DNA from: Billgrantia ethanolica
Lineage (GTDB): Bacteria; Pseudomonadota; Gammaproteobacteria; Pseudomonadales; Halomonadaceae
Assembly: GCF_021404305.1 (NCBI RefSeq)
Contig: NZ_JABFTX010000004.1
Location: forward strand, 620,001-684,000
Length of the DNA: 64,000 nucleotides
Direction: 5' to 3'
The position numbers and the translations under genes were made by a program. The notes under the pieces were generated by a model. The model did not search any database, had not been told where the DNA came from, and was given only the letters and a program-made list of their open reading frames with translations. Of the stretch, positions 6,876-42,540 are shown one piece after another. Position 1 is the first letter of the stretch, and each line of letters opens with the position of its first letter.

Positions 6876-8036
6876 TCAACTCAACCGCTGCATGTAGTCC
6901 TCGTAACCGAAGGTCTTCACCGTGCGTACCTCGCGGCTGCGCTCGTCGACCCGGCAGATCGACGGCAAACGAATGCCGTTGAAGGTGGTGGTCTTGACCA
7001 TGGTGTAGTGGGCCATGTCGGTGAACACCAGGCGGTCGCCGATGGCCAGCGGCTGGTCGAACGAGTAGCGGCCGATCACATCGCCGGCCAGGCAGGTGGT
7101 GCCACCCAGGCGATAGGTGAAGGGTTTCTCGCCCGGCTCGCCGGCGCCAATGATGTGCGGGCGGTAGGGCATCTCCAGCACGTCCGGCATGTGCGCCGTG
7201 GCCGAGGTATCGAGGATGAGGTTGGGACCATCGTTTTCGACGATATCGAGCACCGAGCACACCAGGTAGCCGGTATTCAGCGCGATTGCCTCGCCCGGCT
7301 CCAGGTAGACGATGAGGTGAGGATGACGCTCGCGGAAGCCGCGAATCACCCGCACCAGCCGCTCGATGTCGTAATCGGCGCGGGTGATGTGATGGCCGCC
7401 GCCGAAGTTGACCCAGCGGAGCCCGGCCAGGTACTGACCGAACTTCGCCTCGAACGCCGCCAGGGTCTCCTCCAGGGCGTCGCTGTTCTGCTCGCACAGG
7501 GTGTGAAAGTGCAGTCCCTCGAGCCCTTCCAGGTCGCCCTCGGCGAGATCCGACACCCGCGTGCCGAGCCGTGAGCCCGGCGCGCAGGGATCGTAGAGCG
7601 GTACCGCGCCGGTGGAGTGCTCGGGGTTCACTCGCAAGCCGCAGGAGACCTGGCGCGGCGCCGCCGCGACGGTCTCGCGGAAGCGGCGCCACTGCCCCGG
7701 GGAGTTGAAGCTGATGTGGTCGGCGTACTGCAGCACCACCGCCATCTCCTCGGGGGTGAAGGCCGGCGAATAGACGTGCACCTCGCCACCGAAGGTCTCC
7801 GCGCCCAGTCGCGCCTCGTCCTGCCCGCTGGCGGTGGTGCCCACCAGGTACTGGCTGACCAGCGGGAAGGTGTCCCACATGGCGAAGCCCTTCAGCGCCA
7901 GCAGGATCCTTGCGCCGCTCGCCTCCTGGACCTGCCGCAGCAGCTCCAGGTTCTTGCGCAGCAGCGCGTCGTCGACCACGTAGGCCGGCGACGGACAGGC
8001 GTGGATGTCGAAGTCGGGGCTCGTCATGCTACTCAT
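6876..8036 (-). CDS. nspC: carboxynorspermidine/carboxyspermidine decarboxylase
   Basis: A PLP enzyme of the alanine racemase-like fold III group that decarboxylates carboxy(nor)spermidine to (nor)spermidine. 386 residues. The PLP lysine is probably Lys49 in LLALKGFA. NFGGGHHITR and YLEPGEAI bind the cofactor phosphate, and GGTTCLAGD carries the conserved active-site cysteine. The start at 8036 overlaps the stop of the upstream dehydrogenase as ATGA. A second in-frame ATG at 8027 is possible. With that dehydrogenase it forms the carboxyspermidine branch of polyamine synthesis. A terminator follows. Confidence 0.93.
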   Translation of the reverse strand: MSSMTSPDFDIHACPSPAYVVDDALLRKNLELLRQVQEASGARILLALKGFAMWDTFPLVSQYLVGTTASGQDEARLGAETFGGEVHVYSPAFTPEEMAVVLQYADHISFNSPGQWRRFRETVAAAPRQVSCGLRVNPEHSTGAVPLYDPCAPGSRLGTRVSDLAEGDLEGLEGLHFHTLCEQNSDALEETLAAFEAKFGQYLAGLRWVNFGGGHHITRADYDIERLVRVIRGFRERHPHLIVYLEPGEAIALNTGYLVCSVLDIVENDGPNLILDTSATAHMPDVLEMPYRPHIIGAGEPGEKPFTYRLGGTTCLAGDVIGRYSFDQPLAIGDRLVFTDMAHYTMVKTTTFNGIRLPSICRVDERSREVRTVKTFGYEDYMQRLS

Positions 8037-10423: not shown

Positions 10424-10803
10424 TGGTGGAGGCGGCGGGGATCGAACCCGCGTCCGCCGACACTCGCTCTTCGGCTCTACATGCTTAGGTCCGTTTTTTG
10501 ATTTAACGCATCTGGCTCCAACGGGCAGGATCCAGCTACGCGATTCCTCTAAAGTTTAGCGATTGGCGAGAGGACACCACCAACCGCGATCCCATCAGTC
10601 TTGGCTCATATCCCCTCCGCGATGAATGGGCACATCGCTTTGGGGCCGGACTAGAAGCTAACAGCTATTAAGCTGCCAGCGCGCCCTGAGCGTAGTTGTC
10701 GTCGTTTGCGACTATTTAGTCGTGATGTTGGATTTACGAGATACATCACGCTCTCGGCATGCACCTAGGAGGTTGTCATCGGCGTCGAAGCCATGTCGCC
10801 CCC
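10424..10803 (-). ncRNA. ssrA: transfer-messenger RNA
   Basis: Rescues stalled ribosomes together with SmpB. 380 nt. The 5' end GGGGGCG pairs with CGCCUCC just before the encoded ACCA end, forming a 7-bp acceptor stem with one G-U pair. The T arm GGTTCGATCC is present. The tag reading frame runs from 10709 down to 10668 and encodes ANDDNYAQGALAA followed by TAA TAG. smpB lies upstream on the same strand, 123 bases away. Confidence 0.97.
10668..10709 (-). other. tmRNA tag reading frame
   Basis: Resume codon GCA, then AACGACGACAACTACGCTC and on to GCAGCT and TAA. It encodes the 13-residue proteolysis tag ANDDNYAQGALAA. The LAA end is the signal recognised by ClpXP. The extra QGA insert relative to the Pseudomonas tag ANDDNYALAA is typical of Halomonas relatives. 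Confidence 0.95.
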
Positions 10804-19416: not shown

Positions 19417-19698
19417 ATGCCGATGTCGCGTGCGGTGATCGCTACCGAGTCCGGGGCGAGGGTGATGAACCGGCTGTGCAAGCACTGGGCGCACAAGCTG
19501 GAGGTGGAGCAGGGTGAGGAGCAGAGTCGCGTGGCGTTCGAGGGCGGCTCCTGCGTCATGCGCGTCGAGCCGGGCAAGCTGCTGGTGGCCATCGAGGCGC
19601 TGGACGATGAGGTGCTCGACCGCCTGGAGGGCGTGGTGGATTCCCACCTGCAGCGCATGGCGGGCGACGAGGAACTGGCCATCGTCTGGGAAAATTGA
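19417..19698 (+). CDS. DUF2218 family protein
   Basis: 93 residues resembling the DUF2218 family (SRAVIATESGARVMNRLCKHWAHKLEV ... GGSCVMRVEPGKLLVAIEALDDEVLDRLEGVVDSHL). Function unknown. Homologues in other bacteria are often near iron-uptake genes, which is not the case here. Cytosolic, no signal sequence. AGGGAG precedes ATG 19417. Its TGA overlaps the TTG start of the next gene, so the two are probably translated together. Confidence 0.8.
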   Translation: MPMSRAVIATESGARVMNRLCKHWAHKLEVEQGEEQSRVAFEGGSCVMRVEPGKLLVAIEALDDEVLDRLEGVVDSHLQRMAGDEELAIVWEN

Positions 19699-20609
19699 GC
19701 ACCCCGCCGTCGCCCCGCCTGGCCCACCTCGGCATGCTGCTGTGGGCTCTGCTGGTGGGGCTGTCGTTTCCCGCCGTGGGGCTGATGAGCGAGCTGCCGC
19801 CGCTCTCGCTCACCGCGCTACGTTTCGCCATCGCCTGTGCCGGGCTGTGGTGGCTGGCGCGGCGCTCGTCCGACTTCCTGCCCACCTGGCGGCTGCTGCC
19901 GCTCTACACGCTGATGGGGCTGTGTCTGGCCGGCTTCTTCGGTGCCATGTTCTGGGCCGCCCATCACGCCACCGCGCTCTCCATGGCCACCCTCTACGTC
20001 ACCGTGCCGCTGCTGGCCTACCTGCTGGGGCTGGGGTTCCGCGTCGAGCGACTGGGCTGGCAGCTGCCGGCCATCCTCGCGCTGGGCGCCGCCGGGGCAT
20101 TGGCGCTCGCCTTCGCCGAGGCCCGCAGCCACGGTGAAGGCATGCGGGTGGGGATCGGCGAGGCGGTGTTCTTCTTCGGCTGCGTGGCGTCGGCGCTCTA
20201 TCCGGTGCTGAGCAAGTGGGGGCTGGCGCGGGAGTGGTTGCCCGAGTCGGCGGCGGTACGCACCTTCTGGAGTCTGGGGCTTGGCGGGATCGCCATCGGC
20301 CTGCTGGGGCTCGCCATCGAGCCGGCTACCCACCTCGTCGCCATGCGCTGGCAGGATCTGGCCCTGGTGGTCTATCTCGGGCTCTTCTCCAGCGCGCTCA
20401 CCTTCTGGCTGATGCAGCGTGCCACGGCGGTGCTCACACCGGGAGCCGTGACCGCCTACGGCTACATGGTGCCCTTCGTCTCCATGCTACTGCTGTTCGT
20501 TACCGCCCCCGAGCAGCTCGGCTGGCACTGGCTGCCGGGCAGCGCGCTGGTGCTCGCCGCCATCGGGCTGCTGCTGCGTCAGGACGGCAAGGCGGCCCAA
20601 GAGCGTTAA
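19695..20609 (+). CDS. EamA/DMT-family inner-membrane transporter
   Basis: 304 residues with about ten hydrophobic helices in two EamA-like halves (MLLWALLVGLSFPAVGLM ... and IGEAVFFFGCVASALYPVLSKWG ...). Such proteins export amino acids or other small metabolites; the substrate cannot be told. The start is probably TTG 19695, which overlaps the DUF2218 stop as TTGA; an ATG at 19734 is the alternative. Its TAA overlaps the stop of the convergent gene. Confidence 0.85.
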   Translation: MSTPPSPRLAHLGMLLWALLVGLSFPAVGLMSELPPLSLTALRFAIACAGLWWLARRSSDFLPTWRLLPLYTLMGLCLAGFFGAMFWAAHHATALSMATLYVTVPLLAYLLGLGFRVERLGWQLPAILALGAAGALALAFAEARSHGEGMRVGIGEAVFFFGCVASALYPVLSKWGLAREWLPESAAVRTFWSLGLGGIAIGLLGLAIEPATHLVAMRWQDLALVVYLGLFSSALTFWLMQRATAVLTPGAVTAYGYMVPFVSMLLLFVTAPEQLGWHWLPGSALVLAAIGLLLRQDGKAAQER

Positions 20610-22570
20610 TCCAGCTCCTCGGTGTCCGGTTCACTGCCTGGTGTGGCGGACAGCCGCGGAAAGTGGCGGCGAATCTCGGCGTAGAGCTCGCTCACGTCCG
20701 CCACGTGACGGCGCGAGAAGTGGAACGGCACCAGCTGGCCGACCCCGGCCGCGGCGGCGATCTCACCGCAGGCGCGGGCGGTCAGATGGCCGGTGCGCCG
20801 GGCCTGCTCGGCCTGGTCTTCACGAAACGAAGCCTCGCAGAACAGCACCTCGGCGCCGTGGGCAAGCGCACACAGGCGCTTGCGGTTCTCCGGTGTGTCG
20901 CCGAAGTCGGTGGCATAGACCAGGCGCTGGCCCGGCTGCGCGAACAGCAGTTGCTCGGCCAACCCGGCGACGGGCTGACGGCTGCCGTCGGGCAGGGTGA
21001 TCTCGCCTGCGTCGCCGCCTTCCTGCGCGCGCTGCTTGAGCTCGCCGAGCCAGGGGCCGGGCGCCCAGCCGTGTGCGTTCAGGCGCTCCTTGCGCACCTT
21101 GAGCTGGGTCGCCGGCTCATAGGCGAAGGCCAGTACCGGGGTGCCATGATCCAGCGTGGCGGCGCGCACGCGAAAACCGGGCTCGGCGTGGATCACGTCG
21201 CCATCCACCTCGCATGGGGAGAGCACCTGCATCGGCTGGCCGGCGACGAGCCGATAGTGGGCCAGGCGTTCACCGTGCAGCTCGAAGACCTCGAAGCGAG
21301 GCGCCTTCTGCTCGACCCGGTCCCACAGGATGCCGCGCAGAAAGCCGTCCAGGTGAGCGGCGAGTCCGGGCGGGCCGTAGACCCGGCAGGCCGAGTAGTC
21401 GCCGATGCGTGAGCGCAGCAGCCACAGGAAACCGCCGATGTGGTCGACATGGGCATGGCTGATGAACACGTCGCTGATCTGGTGGGCCAGCCGCGCCGGC
21501 AGCCGGCCGGGGTCGCCCAGGTCGAACAGCAGGCTGCGCTTGCGGTGGCGCAGGCGCAGATGCAGCAGCGGATCGCCGAACACGCCGTTGACCAGCGTGG
21601 CGCGCAGGCCATCGAGGCGCAGCGTCGGGCGGGGGCCGGTGGCGCTCTCCTGAGGAGTGTACGAGAGCGCCGGCGCTTCACCGGATGCGGTCGAGGAGCG
21701 AGGATGAGGGCGCGCCGTGCCGAGCTGTCCTTCGGCGCTGCGCCGGGCATCGCGAATCACCAGGGTACGCGGCGTGCCCGTCAGGGGCGGCGTGCGCACG
21801 CTGAGCCGATCCCCCACCAGAGCCAACACTTCGCCCATGGCCAGGGTCGCCCCGCCGGCATCGAGCAGGCCGATCTGACGCCCTGGCCAGGCATGAGGCG
21901 CGCCGCCGGGCGGCGGGGCGCCGACGAAGGTCAGCGCCGACAGCTCGAGTTCCCGCATCTCGGCGCTGTCGAGATAAGCATCCCAGGCGTCGGTGCGCCA
22001 CTGGCGGCGCAGCTGTTTGCCGGGGTGGCGCGCCTGAGGGTGCGCGGGCAGGTTCAGCGTTGCCAGGCCGAGGGCGGCGCGCTCATGCGGATACGGGTCG
22101 CGCTCCTGCGCCGGCGCCAGGCGTACCACGGCACTCACCCGGCCGGCGCCGACCAGTGCCGGCAGCAGCTCGGCACCGCCGATACCGCGCTCCACGCCGG
22201 GGGCGTCGATGACCAGCGGCGTCGCGTCGAGCCGTGCGACCATGCGGCGTACGGCGTCTGTCAGCGGCAGGCGGAAGCGGGCGCTGTCGAGGGTGGCGAG
22301 CGCCTCGATGGCCTCCAGCTGCCACTCGCCCAAGCGCTCATCCCAGTGCCCCAGGCATACGGCACCGGGCGGGCCGAAGCCGGGCAGGCCGGGGTCGGCG
22401 GCCAGGCAGCGGCACACCTGGCCGCGTTCGGCCAGGGCTGCCGCCGCACTTCGCGCCAGGGTGCTCTTGCCGCTGCCGGGCGGGCCGGTGAGCAGCACGC
22501 GCGGATGACGTTCGAGCAGCTCTAGCAGGGCGGCTGCGCGGGTGGTATCGGGCGGCATCGACTCAGACAT
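20606..22570 (-). CDS. fusion: Clp1-like P-loop domain + RNase Z-like nuclease
   Basis: 654 residues with two parts. Residues 24-160 are a P-loop NTPase: Walker A GPPGSGKST (29-37), a LAADPGLPGFGPPG block (57-70) and Walker B-like LVIDAPGV (119-126), in the style of Clp1/Grc3 RNA 5'-kinases. A Clp1-like middle follows (to about 275), then a short linker. Residues 315-640 are a metallo-beta-lactamase nuclease of RNase Z type: DVFISHAHVDHIGG (His372, His374, Asp376, His377), His475, Asp555 in YATDFGDT and His617 in FHFSRRH. All RNase Z metal ligands appear present. The likely role is RNA end processing or repair; no biochemistry is known to me. An AAGGAAC site precedes ATG 22570. Confidence 0.82.
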   Translation of the reverse strand: MSESMPPDTTRAAALLELLERHPRVLLTGPPGSGKSTLARSAAAALAERGQVCRCLAADPGLPGFGPPGAVCLGHWDERLGEWQLEAIEALATLDSARFRLPLTDAVRRMVARLDATPLVIDAPGVERGIGGAELLPALVGAGRVSAVVRLAPAQERDPYPHERAALGLATLNLPAHPQARHPGKQLRRQWRTDAWDAYLDSAEMRELELSALTFVGAPPPGGAPHAWPGRQIGLLDAGGATLAMGEVLALVGDRLSVRTPPLTGTPRTLVIRDARRSAEGQLGTARPHPRSSTASGEAPALSYTPQESATGPRPTLRLDGLRATLVNGVFGDPLLHLRLRHRKRSLLFDLGDPGRLPARLAHQISDVFISHAHVDHIGGFLWLLRSRIGDYSACRVYGPPGLAAHLDGFLRGILWDRVEQKAPRFEVFELHGERLAHYRLVAGQPMQVLSPCEVDGDVIHAEPGFRVRAATLDHGTPVLAFAYEPATQLKVRKERLNAHGWAPGPWLGELKQRAQEGGDAGEITLPDGSRQPVAGLAEQLLFAQPGQRLVYATDFGDTPENRKRLCALAHGAEVLFCEASFREDQAEQARRTGHLTARACGEIAAAAGVGQLVPFHFSRRHVADVSELYAEIRRHFPRLSATPGSEPDTEELD

Positions 22571-22582
22571 GGCGTTCCTTGA

Positions 22583-23509
<927 letters not shown>

Positions 23510-42189: not shown

Positions 42190-42270
42190 GCAAGGAGAGA
42201 CGCCCGAGACTGCAAATATGCGTGGTCTCACACATTCACGTTTCAGGCATATTGCTTACTGGAGAAACAG

Positions 42271-42540
42271 ATGGCACTTACCGCTGAACAGAAGGCCGAG
42301 ATCGTCAAGGAATTCGCCCGTGGCGACAACGATACCGGTTCCCCCGAGGTTCAGGTGGCCCTGCTGAGCGCCAACATCGACGGCCTGCAGGATCACTTCA
42401 AGACCAACAAGCAGGATCACCACTCCCGTCGTGGCCTGATCCGCATGGTCAACCAGCGCCGCAAGCTGCTGGACTACCTGAAGCGCAAGGACCTGGCGCG
42501 CTATCAGGCATTGATCCAGCGCCTCGGCCTGCGTCGTTAA
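42271..42540 (+). CDS. rpsO: 30S ribosomal protein S15
   Basis: Primary 16S rRNA-binding protein. 89 residues, exact family length. [34 protein letters not shown] and [30 protein letters not shown] are typical. A TGGAGAA site precedes the ATG. A strong terminator follows, then pnp; in E. coli S15 represses its own translation. Confidence 0.98.

Follow-up and report, generated by a model that had tools for sequence, protein, structure and literature searches.

The window, by which we mean the whole stretch of 64,000 nucleotides analysed here, encodes a protein of 654 residues in which a Clp1/Grc3-like P-loop domain is joined to an RNase Z-like nuclease. We predict, with a probability of roughly 0.6, that this fusion is a two-domain enzyme that acts on RNA ends, most likely those of broken or misprocessed tRNA or tRNA-like fragments.

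Two domains in one reading frame

The preliminary description had proposed a single chain, and the ORF bears this out: it has an ATG start and both halves lie in one frame. The gene is situated between a convergent EamA transporter gene and a divergent, presumably dapB-like gene, and it therefore looks monocistronic. Residues 486-530 of the protein cover what is presumably the RNase Z arm. The features are as follows.

20606 to 22570, minus strand: fusion gene, 654 residues (ORF with ATG start; whole-length homologues; two halves in frame at 76/80 loci)
21716 to 22570, minus strand: N half, residues 1-285, Clp1/Grc3-like P-loop domain and the beta domain that follows it
22463 to 22486, minus strand: Walker A GPPGSGKS, residues 29-36 (Lys35 in 56/57 alignment rows, one gap)
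22394 to 22396, minus strand: Asp59, the Walker B Asp position (57/57 rows; pairs with Grc3 DPGQPEFSPPG)
22193 to 22207, minus strand: clasp position DAPGV, residues 122-126, without Trp (NTPGW in Grc3; from alignment)
21995 to 22009, minus strand: lid-like RxxxR, residues 188-192 (R188 in 56/57 rows, R192 in 57/57)
21626 to 21715, minus strand: linker, residues 286-315 (low pLDDT confidence at 292-307)
20645 to 21625, minus strand: C half, residues 316-642, RNase Z-like nuclease of metallo-beta-lactamase fold
21440 to 21457, minus strand: metal-binding motif HAHVDH, residues 372-377 (His372, His374, Asp376 and His377 each in 57/57 rows)
20981 to 21115, minus strand: region aligned by sequence with the RNase Z arm / GP motif, residues 486-530 (alignment to 1y44, 2cbn)
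20720 to 21148, minus strand: span of the remaining ligand and catalytic positions His475, Asp555, His595 and His617 (each in 57/57 rows)
19695 to 20609, plus strand: EamA transporter, convergent neighbour, overlapping the end of the fusion gene by 4 bases (ORF)
22583 to 23509, plus strand: presumed dapB-like ORF, divergent neighbour, start approximate

Elsewhere in the window there is a tmRNA gene at 10424-10803, with the tag ANDDNYAQGALAA, and a ribosomal S15 leader at 42202-42327.

The C half matches Lactamase_B_2 at 62.7 bits (cut-off 27), its predicted structure contains the RNase Z fold, and its top structural match is a complex of RNase Z with precursor tRNA. The motif SHAHVDHIGG together with His475, Asp555 and His617, on which the preliminary description had based an RNase Z assignment, is present where it was placed, and profile and fold both identify the half as RNase Z-type. 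All motif counts given here come from an alignment of 57 rows that reaches down to 43% identity. Within it the metal ligands (HxHxDH, His, Asp, His) are each found in 57/57 rows; note that Asp555 is matched to the ligand Asp of RNase Z by profile alignment, whereas another alignment matches Asp558 (54/57 rows). In the GP motif and arm region, G505 and K512 are kept in 57/57 rows and P506 in 53/57. The C half therefore shares with RNase Z / RNase BN (PDB 1y44, 4gcw, 2cbn) and with PRK02126 the fold, the metal ligands, His595, Glu579 and the GP motif; it differs from RNase Z in carrying ATD for SGD at the Asp ligand, in having a P-loop domain attached, and in missing both curated RNase Z cut-offs (TIGR02651, 97.4 versus 292.95 bits; PRK02126, 276.7 versus 315). 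These missed cut-offs count against our reading. Note that 47 canonical RNase Z copies of Halomonadaceae (237-283 bits) likewise fall under the TIGR02651 cut-off of 293.

We also considered that the protein might not act on RNA but combine a small-substrate kinase with a phosphodiesterase whose substrate is a small molecule or an AMPylated protein. NF041851, a model of cyclic-nucleotide phosphodiesterases, matches 57/57 rows at E <= 0.001, with the window protein at 36.1 bits, far under the cut-off of 400, and RNase Z itself is reported to be a deAMPylase (PMC12663964). The conservation of the arm region and GP motif, the structural match to the complex with precursor tRNA and the Rtc genes found beside the fusion (see below) all argue against such an enzyme, which we consider improbable.

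Motifs of the kinase-like half

For the N half the top Pfam match is CLP1_P (PF16575), at 48.9 bits against a gathering cut-off of 26.6, and CLP1_P is the sole family matched by 22/22 N halves at E <= 0.001. Given also the Walker A at residues 29-36, the Clp1-like P-loop part that had been proposed is confirmed, and the unrelated GTPase or transport ATPase family that had been named as the contrary outcome did not appear. By structural matching of the predicted structure, in which the arrangement of the domains is unsure (pTM 0.63), a Clp1 fold covers the P-loop and C-terminal domains of this half. The whole fold and the Walker A are as in the RNA 5'-kinases Grc3/Nol9 and Clp1 (PDB 6of2, 8puw, 4ohv, 8hmy), as are the Walker B Asp within a DPGxPxFxxPG frame, the PG of the clasp and the pair of Arg residues in the lid region. 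Unlike these kinases, the fusion has no clasp Trp and almost no Walker B Gln, and it is joined to a nuclease of another family.

The sequence VIDAPG had previously been read as Walker B-like. When aligned with a profile lacking the P-loop, VIDAPG pairs with the Grc3 clasp NTPGW and ADPGxPxFGxPG with Grc3 DLDPGQPEFSPPG; VIDAPG is therefore misassigned as Walker B, and the Walker B Asp is D59. Asp59, R98, R100, E134 and R192 are each conserved in 57/57 rows. By comparison, the Walker B Gln occurs in 1/57 rows only (P0068). At the clasp the PG is kept and Trp is found in 0/57 rows, the position being occupied by Val (43), Leu (12), Met (1) or Ala (1). The lid-region pair is spaced RxxxR rather than the RxxxxR of active kinases, for which PMC6777427 gives Walker B [D/E]hhQ, clasp [T/S/L]xGW and lid RxxxxR. 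A homologue from an Acidobacteria MAG (L126) keeps Asp59 and has no recognisable Walker A.

The half lacks two residues found in the motifs of active Clp1 kinases, and 5'-kinase activity is not supported in the form first put forward. The missing residues count against our reading, as does the faster rate at which the N half evolves. Specifically, dN/dS between the window and 11 Halomonadaceae loci is below 1 for both halves in 11/11 comparisons, ranging from 0.26 to 0.64 for the N half and from 0.14 to 0.37 for the C half; both halves are thus constrained, the C half more so.

The main rival to our reading draws on the same observations: the C half would be an RNase Z-like nuclease and the N half a regulatory pseudo-kinase that binds ATP and RNA and gates or positions the nuclease, with no transfer of phosphate. 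PMC10598085 reports Clp1 proteins that lack kinase activity and ties this to motif changes, those of the clasp above all, which agrees with the missing clasp Trp and Walker B Gln; the N half's faster evolution and the nesting of stand-alone nuclease halves among Halomonadaceae fusions (see below) point the same way. However, the conservation of Lys35, Asp59, R98, R100, E134 and R192 is as strict as that of the nuclease residues and suggests that a chemical step is carried out. We think a pseudo-kinase possible, at clearly less than even odds.

Among bacteria, a Clp1-family protein with kinase activity has been described from Thermus scotoductus (Saito et al. 2019, PMC6777427); it differs from the fusion in that it is a stand-alone protein of ~27 kDa in which 3/4 motifs are well kept. 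The same paper calls Clp1-type proteins extremely rare in bacteria (14/1,543 species). The words metallo, lactamase and RNase Z are absent from the main text of that paper, whose 149 bacterial proteins could include fusions. In the titles and abstract openings of the open-licence literature we found no description of the fusion. The RNA-repair survey of Burroughs and Aravind may mention it.

Spread of the fusion and apparent loss of its N half

A whole-length search returned 1333 proteins at E <= 0.001. Among the best 120 of these, 119 align over at least 91% of the query, P0021 (75%) being the exception, and CLP1_P is listed for 119, all but the partial record P0059; among the matches listed, the closest are 91-93% identical, one of them from Halomonas sp. 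MCCC 1A11062. In a sample consisting of the best 80 of 140 loci, the two halves are in one frame at 76 (L126 counted in). At the other four, the match starts at a contig end (L069, L088), the frame closes early (L107), or a stand-alone nuclease half is encoded (L123). The tree places fusions under four phylum labels, namely Pseudomonadota, Nitrospinota, Thermodesulfobacteriota and Acidobacteriota. The phylogenetic spread, which had been left for a survey, thus extends to several bacterial groups, and misassembly as the source of the fusion is ruled out by the 76/80 loci. That three Halomonadaceae proteins manage without an N half would fit a chance fusion or assembly artefact with no joint function, but retention of the fusion at 76 of the best 80 loci over four phylum labels makes this already disfavoured explanation very improbable.

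CLP1_P was detected in 5/398 genomes of the phylum (a tally that may be low, with 8 candidates scored per genome), and all five cases are fusions (G000, G042, G236, G327, and G006, in which the fusion is split over two contigs), a result that favours our reading. Against it, Clp1-type proteins are not bound to the fusion: the gammaproteobacterial genome G888 encodes a distant stand-alone one (L217, 1230-2657) with the motifs DADIGQ and NTPG, which keeps GQ after the Walker B Asp (3 candidates were scored per genome in this survey, so its tally may be low). When the N half was used as the query, four proteins were returned: P0021 and P0241 have both Pfam domains, and P0242 and P0243 are truncated. 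Close N halves without a nuclease were thus seen as truncated pieces only. P0121 and P0242 present the two halves as separate frames on 5171-long contigs and look like one broken fusion gene.

Across 151 Halomonadaceae genomes, a full canonical RNase Z is present in 47 and the fusion in 13, and the two never occur together (kinship ignored), which we count in favour of our reading; the canonical copies cluster in other genera than the fusion. At the thresholds used, 87/151 lack both the fusion and any RNase Z, canonical or solo; the function is therefore dispensable, a further point against our reading.

The tree, a quick one built from 93 C halves and with 34/86 inner branches open, unites 14 stand-alone relatives in a single clade (support 100). 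This clade has a long branch (1.19) and groups with the Halomonadaceae fusions (support 96); either the clade also descends from a fusion or the long branch misleads. Three stand-alone proteins of Halomonadaceae nest at three places among the fusions of that family, so the N half seems to have been lost in three lines, another point against our reading. P0122, read by eye, has a fusion-like start that runs directly into the linker, which indicates loss of the N half; P0123 is the stand-alone nuclease half at the same chromosomal place (L123), where tblastn found no trace of an N half. P0125 also appears as a short form.

RNA-repair neighbours and the host genome

Rtc genes neighbour the fusion in a few genomes. 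In Photobacterium marinum (L108) and at L180 (by tblastn), RtcA is the next gene upstream and has the same orientation as the fusion; in a Methylococcaceae locus (L095) it adjoins the fusion divergently. RtcB is the next gene upstream in P. proteolyticum (L117; 38 bases by ORF ends); in P. obscurum (L112) it is 1.4 kb upstream, with an opposite-strand ORF in between. These neighbours score 238 and 269 bits for RtcA (Pfam RTC) and 425 bits for RtcB. In Photobacterium alginatilyticum (L111), relatives of which have the full-length gene, the upstream RtcB match is just 55 residues long (7681-7845). In the tree, L108 and L111 belong to one clade, and L095 and L180 fall together in another with L100, which has no Rtc gene; the Rtc neighbours are thus in two clades. 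They were found near 4 of the best 80 loci (Halomonadaceae 0/28, others 4/52), a low number that speaks against our reading, and in 1/13 loci of a class sample (L175-L187), several of which repeat records of the 80. In its favour, they were found at 0/14 loci of relatives consisting of the C half only (L190-L203; flanks to ~8 kb, shorter at contig ends). PMC7790460 reports that tRNA fragments induce the Salmonella rtcBA operon, which fits these neighbours. The fusion is a different enzyme from RtcA and RtcB.

Other neighbours recur. In Nitrosomonas and gammaproteobacterial MAGs, a gene for a CheR-type methyltransferase adjoins the fusion in several orientations (L086, L089, L125, L073) or lies within 4 kb (L090, L092), and in Nitrosomonas a Macro-domain gene lies upstream (~0.4 kb in L090 and L092; 3.2 kb in L101).

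The host genome is estimated to be 99.99% complete. TIGR02651 matches the fusion and, weakly (32.8 bits), a generic 268-residue protein of metallo-beta-lactamase fold, so the search for a separate RNase Z, advised in the preliminary description, yielded no other relative by this model; CLP1_P matched once. All 58/58 tRNA genes found encode CCA (two within the window, plus sets of 30/30 and 26/26). RNase Z maturation is thus not required to make way for CCA addition, and we count this in favour of a role on damaged RNA ends. Searches for RtcB, RtcA and the RNA_ligase family gave no match in the host genome, which encodes one 2_5_RNA_ligase2 protein; ligation there is thus unsupported, which weighs against our reading.

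Proposed action on RNA ends

Favouring action on RNA ends are also the strong predicted assignment of both folds, the assignment of families by profile, the invariance of the metal ligands and Asp59 with near-invariance of Lys35, and the retained arm region. From its family, fold and ligands, the C half would bind RNA via an RNase Z-type arm and cut 3' extensions by a two-metal mechanism, leaving a 3'-OH. With less assurance, the N half would bind ATP and probably phosphorylate a 5'-OH, on the same RNA or on a partner fragment. RNase Z by itself leaves a 3'-OH and a 5'-phosphate, so a kinase is not needed for its own cut; what the kinase-like half would act on instead are 5'-OH ends left by ribotoxins or by nucleases other than this one. 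A damaged RNA would thereby have its two ends reset. It would be repaired in cells that have RtcA/RtcB or another ligase; where none was found, as in the host genome, decay or CCA rebuilding, rather than sealing, would follow. Of the suggestion that the protein processes, heals or repairs tRNA ends, the general idea gains indirect support from the Rtc neighbours in two clades and the 58/58 CCA-encoding genes; the kinase step as stated does not.

Las1-Grc3, which processes pre-rRNA, consists of two chains, and its nuclease is of a different fold. To judge from entry titles (PDB 8puw, 7y18), that complex, like the fusion, pairs a Clp1-type domain with an endonuclease; the fusion does so in one chain and with an RNase Z-type nuclease. 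A fully fledged counterpart of Las1-Grc3, in which one chain repairs broken tRNA by converting 5'-OH to 5'-phosphate and trimming the 3' end with its RNase Z half, is a tentative proposal that we think rather unlikely to hold in full.

What an RNase Z would do in a genome with CCA encoded in every tRNA gene is puzzling. Here, in several lineages of bacteria, such a nuclease domain and a Clp1-type domain are conserved as one chain, and in two clades genes for RNA repair lie next to it. The Halomonadaceae that have the nuclease half alone offer a ready-made comparison. If the N half is a pseudo-kinase, the protein would be a natural ATP-gated RNase Z; if it is active, the fusion would show in compact form how the healing of 5' and 3' ends can be coupled, and would give RNase Z a role beyond tRNA maturation that can be tested.
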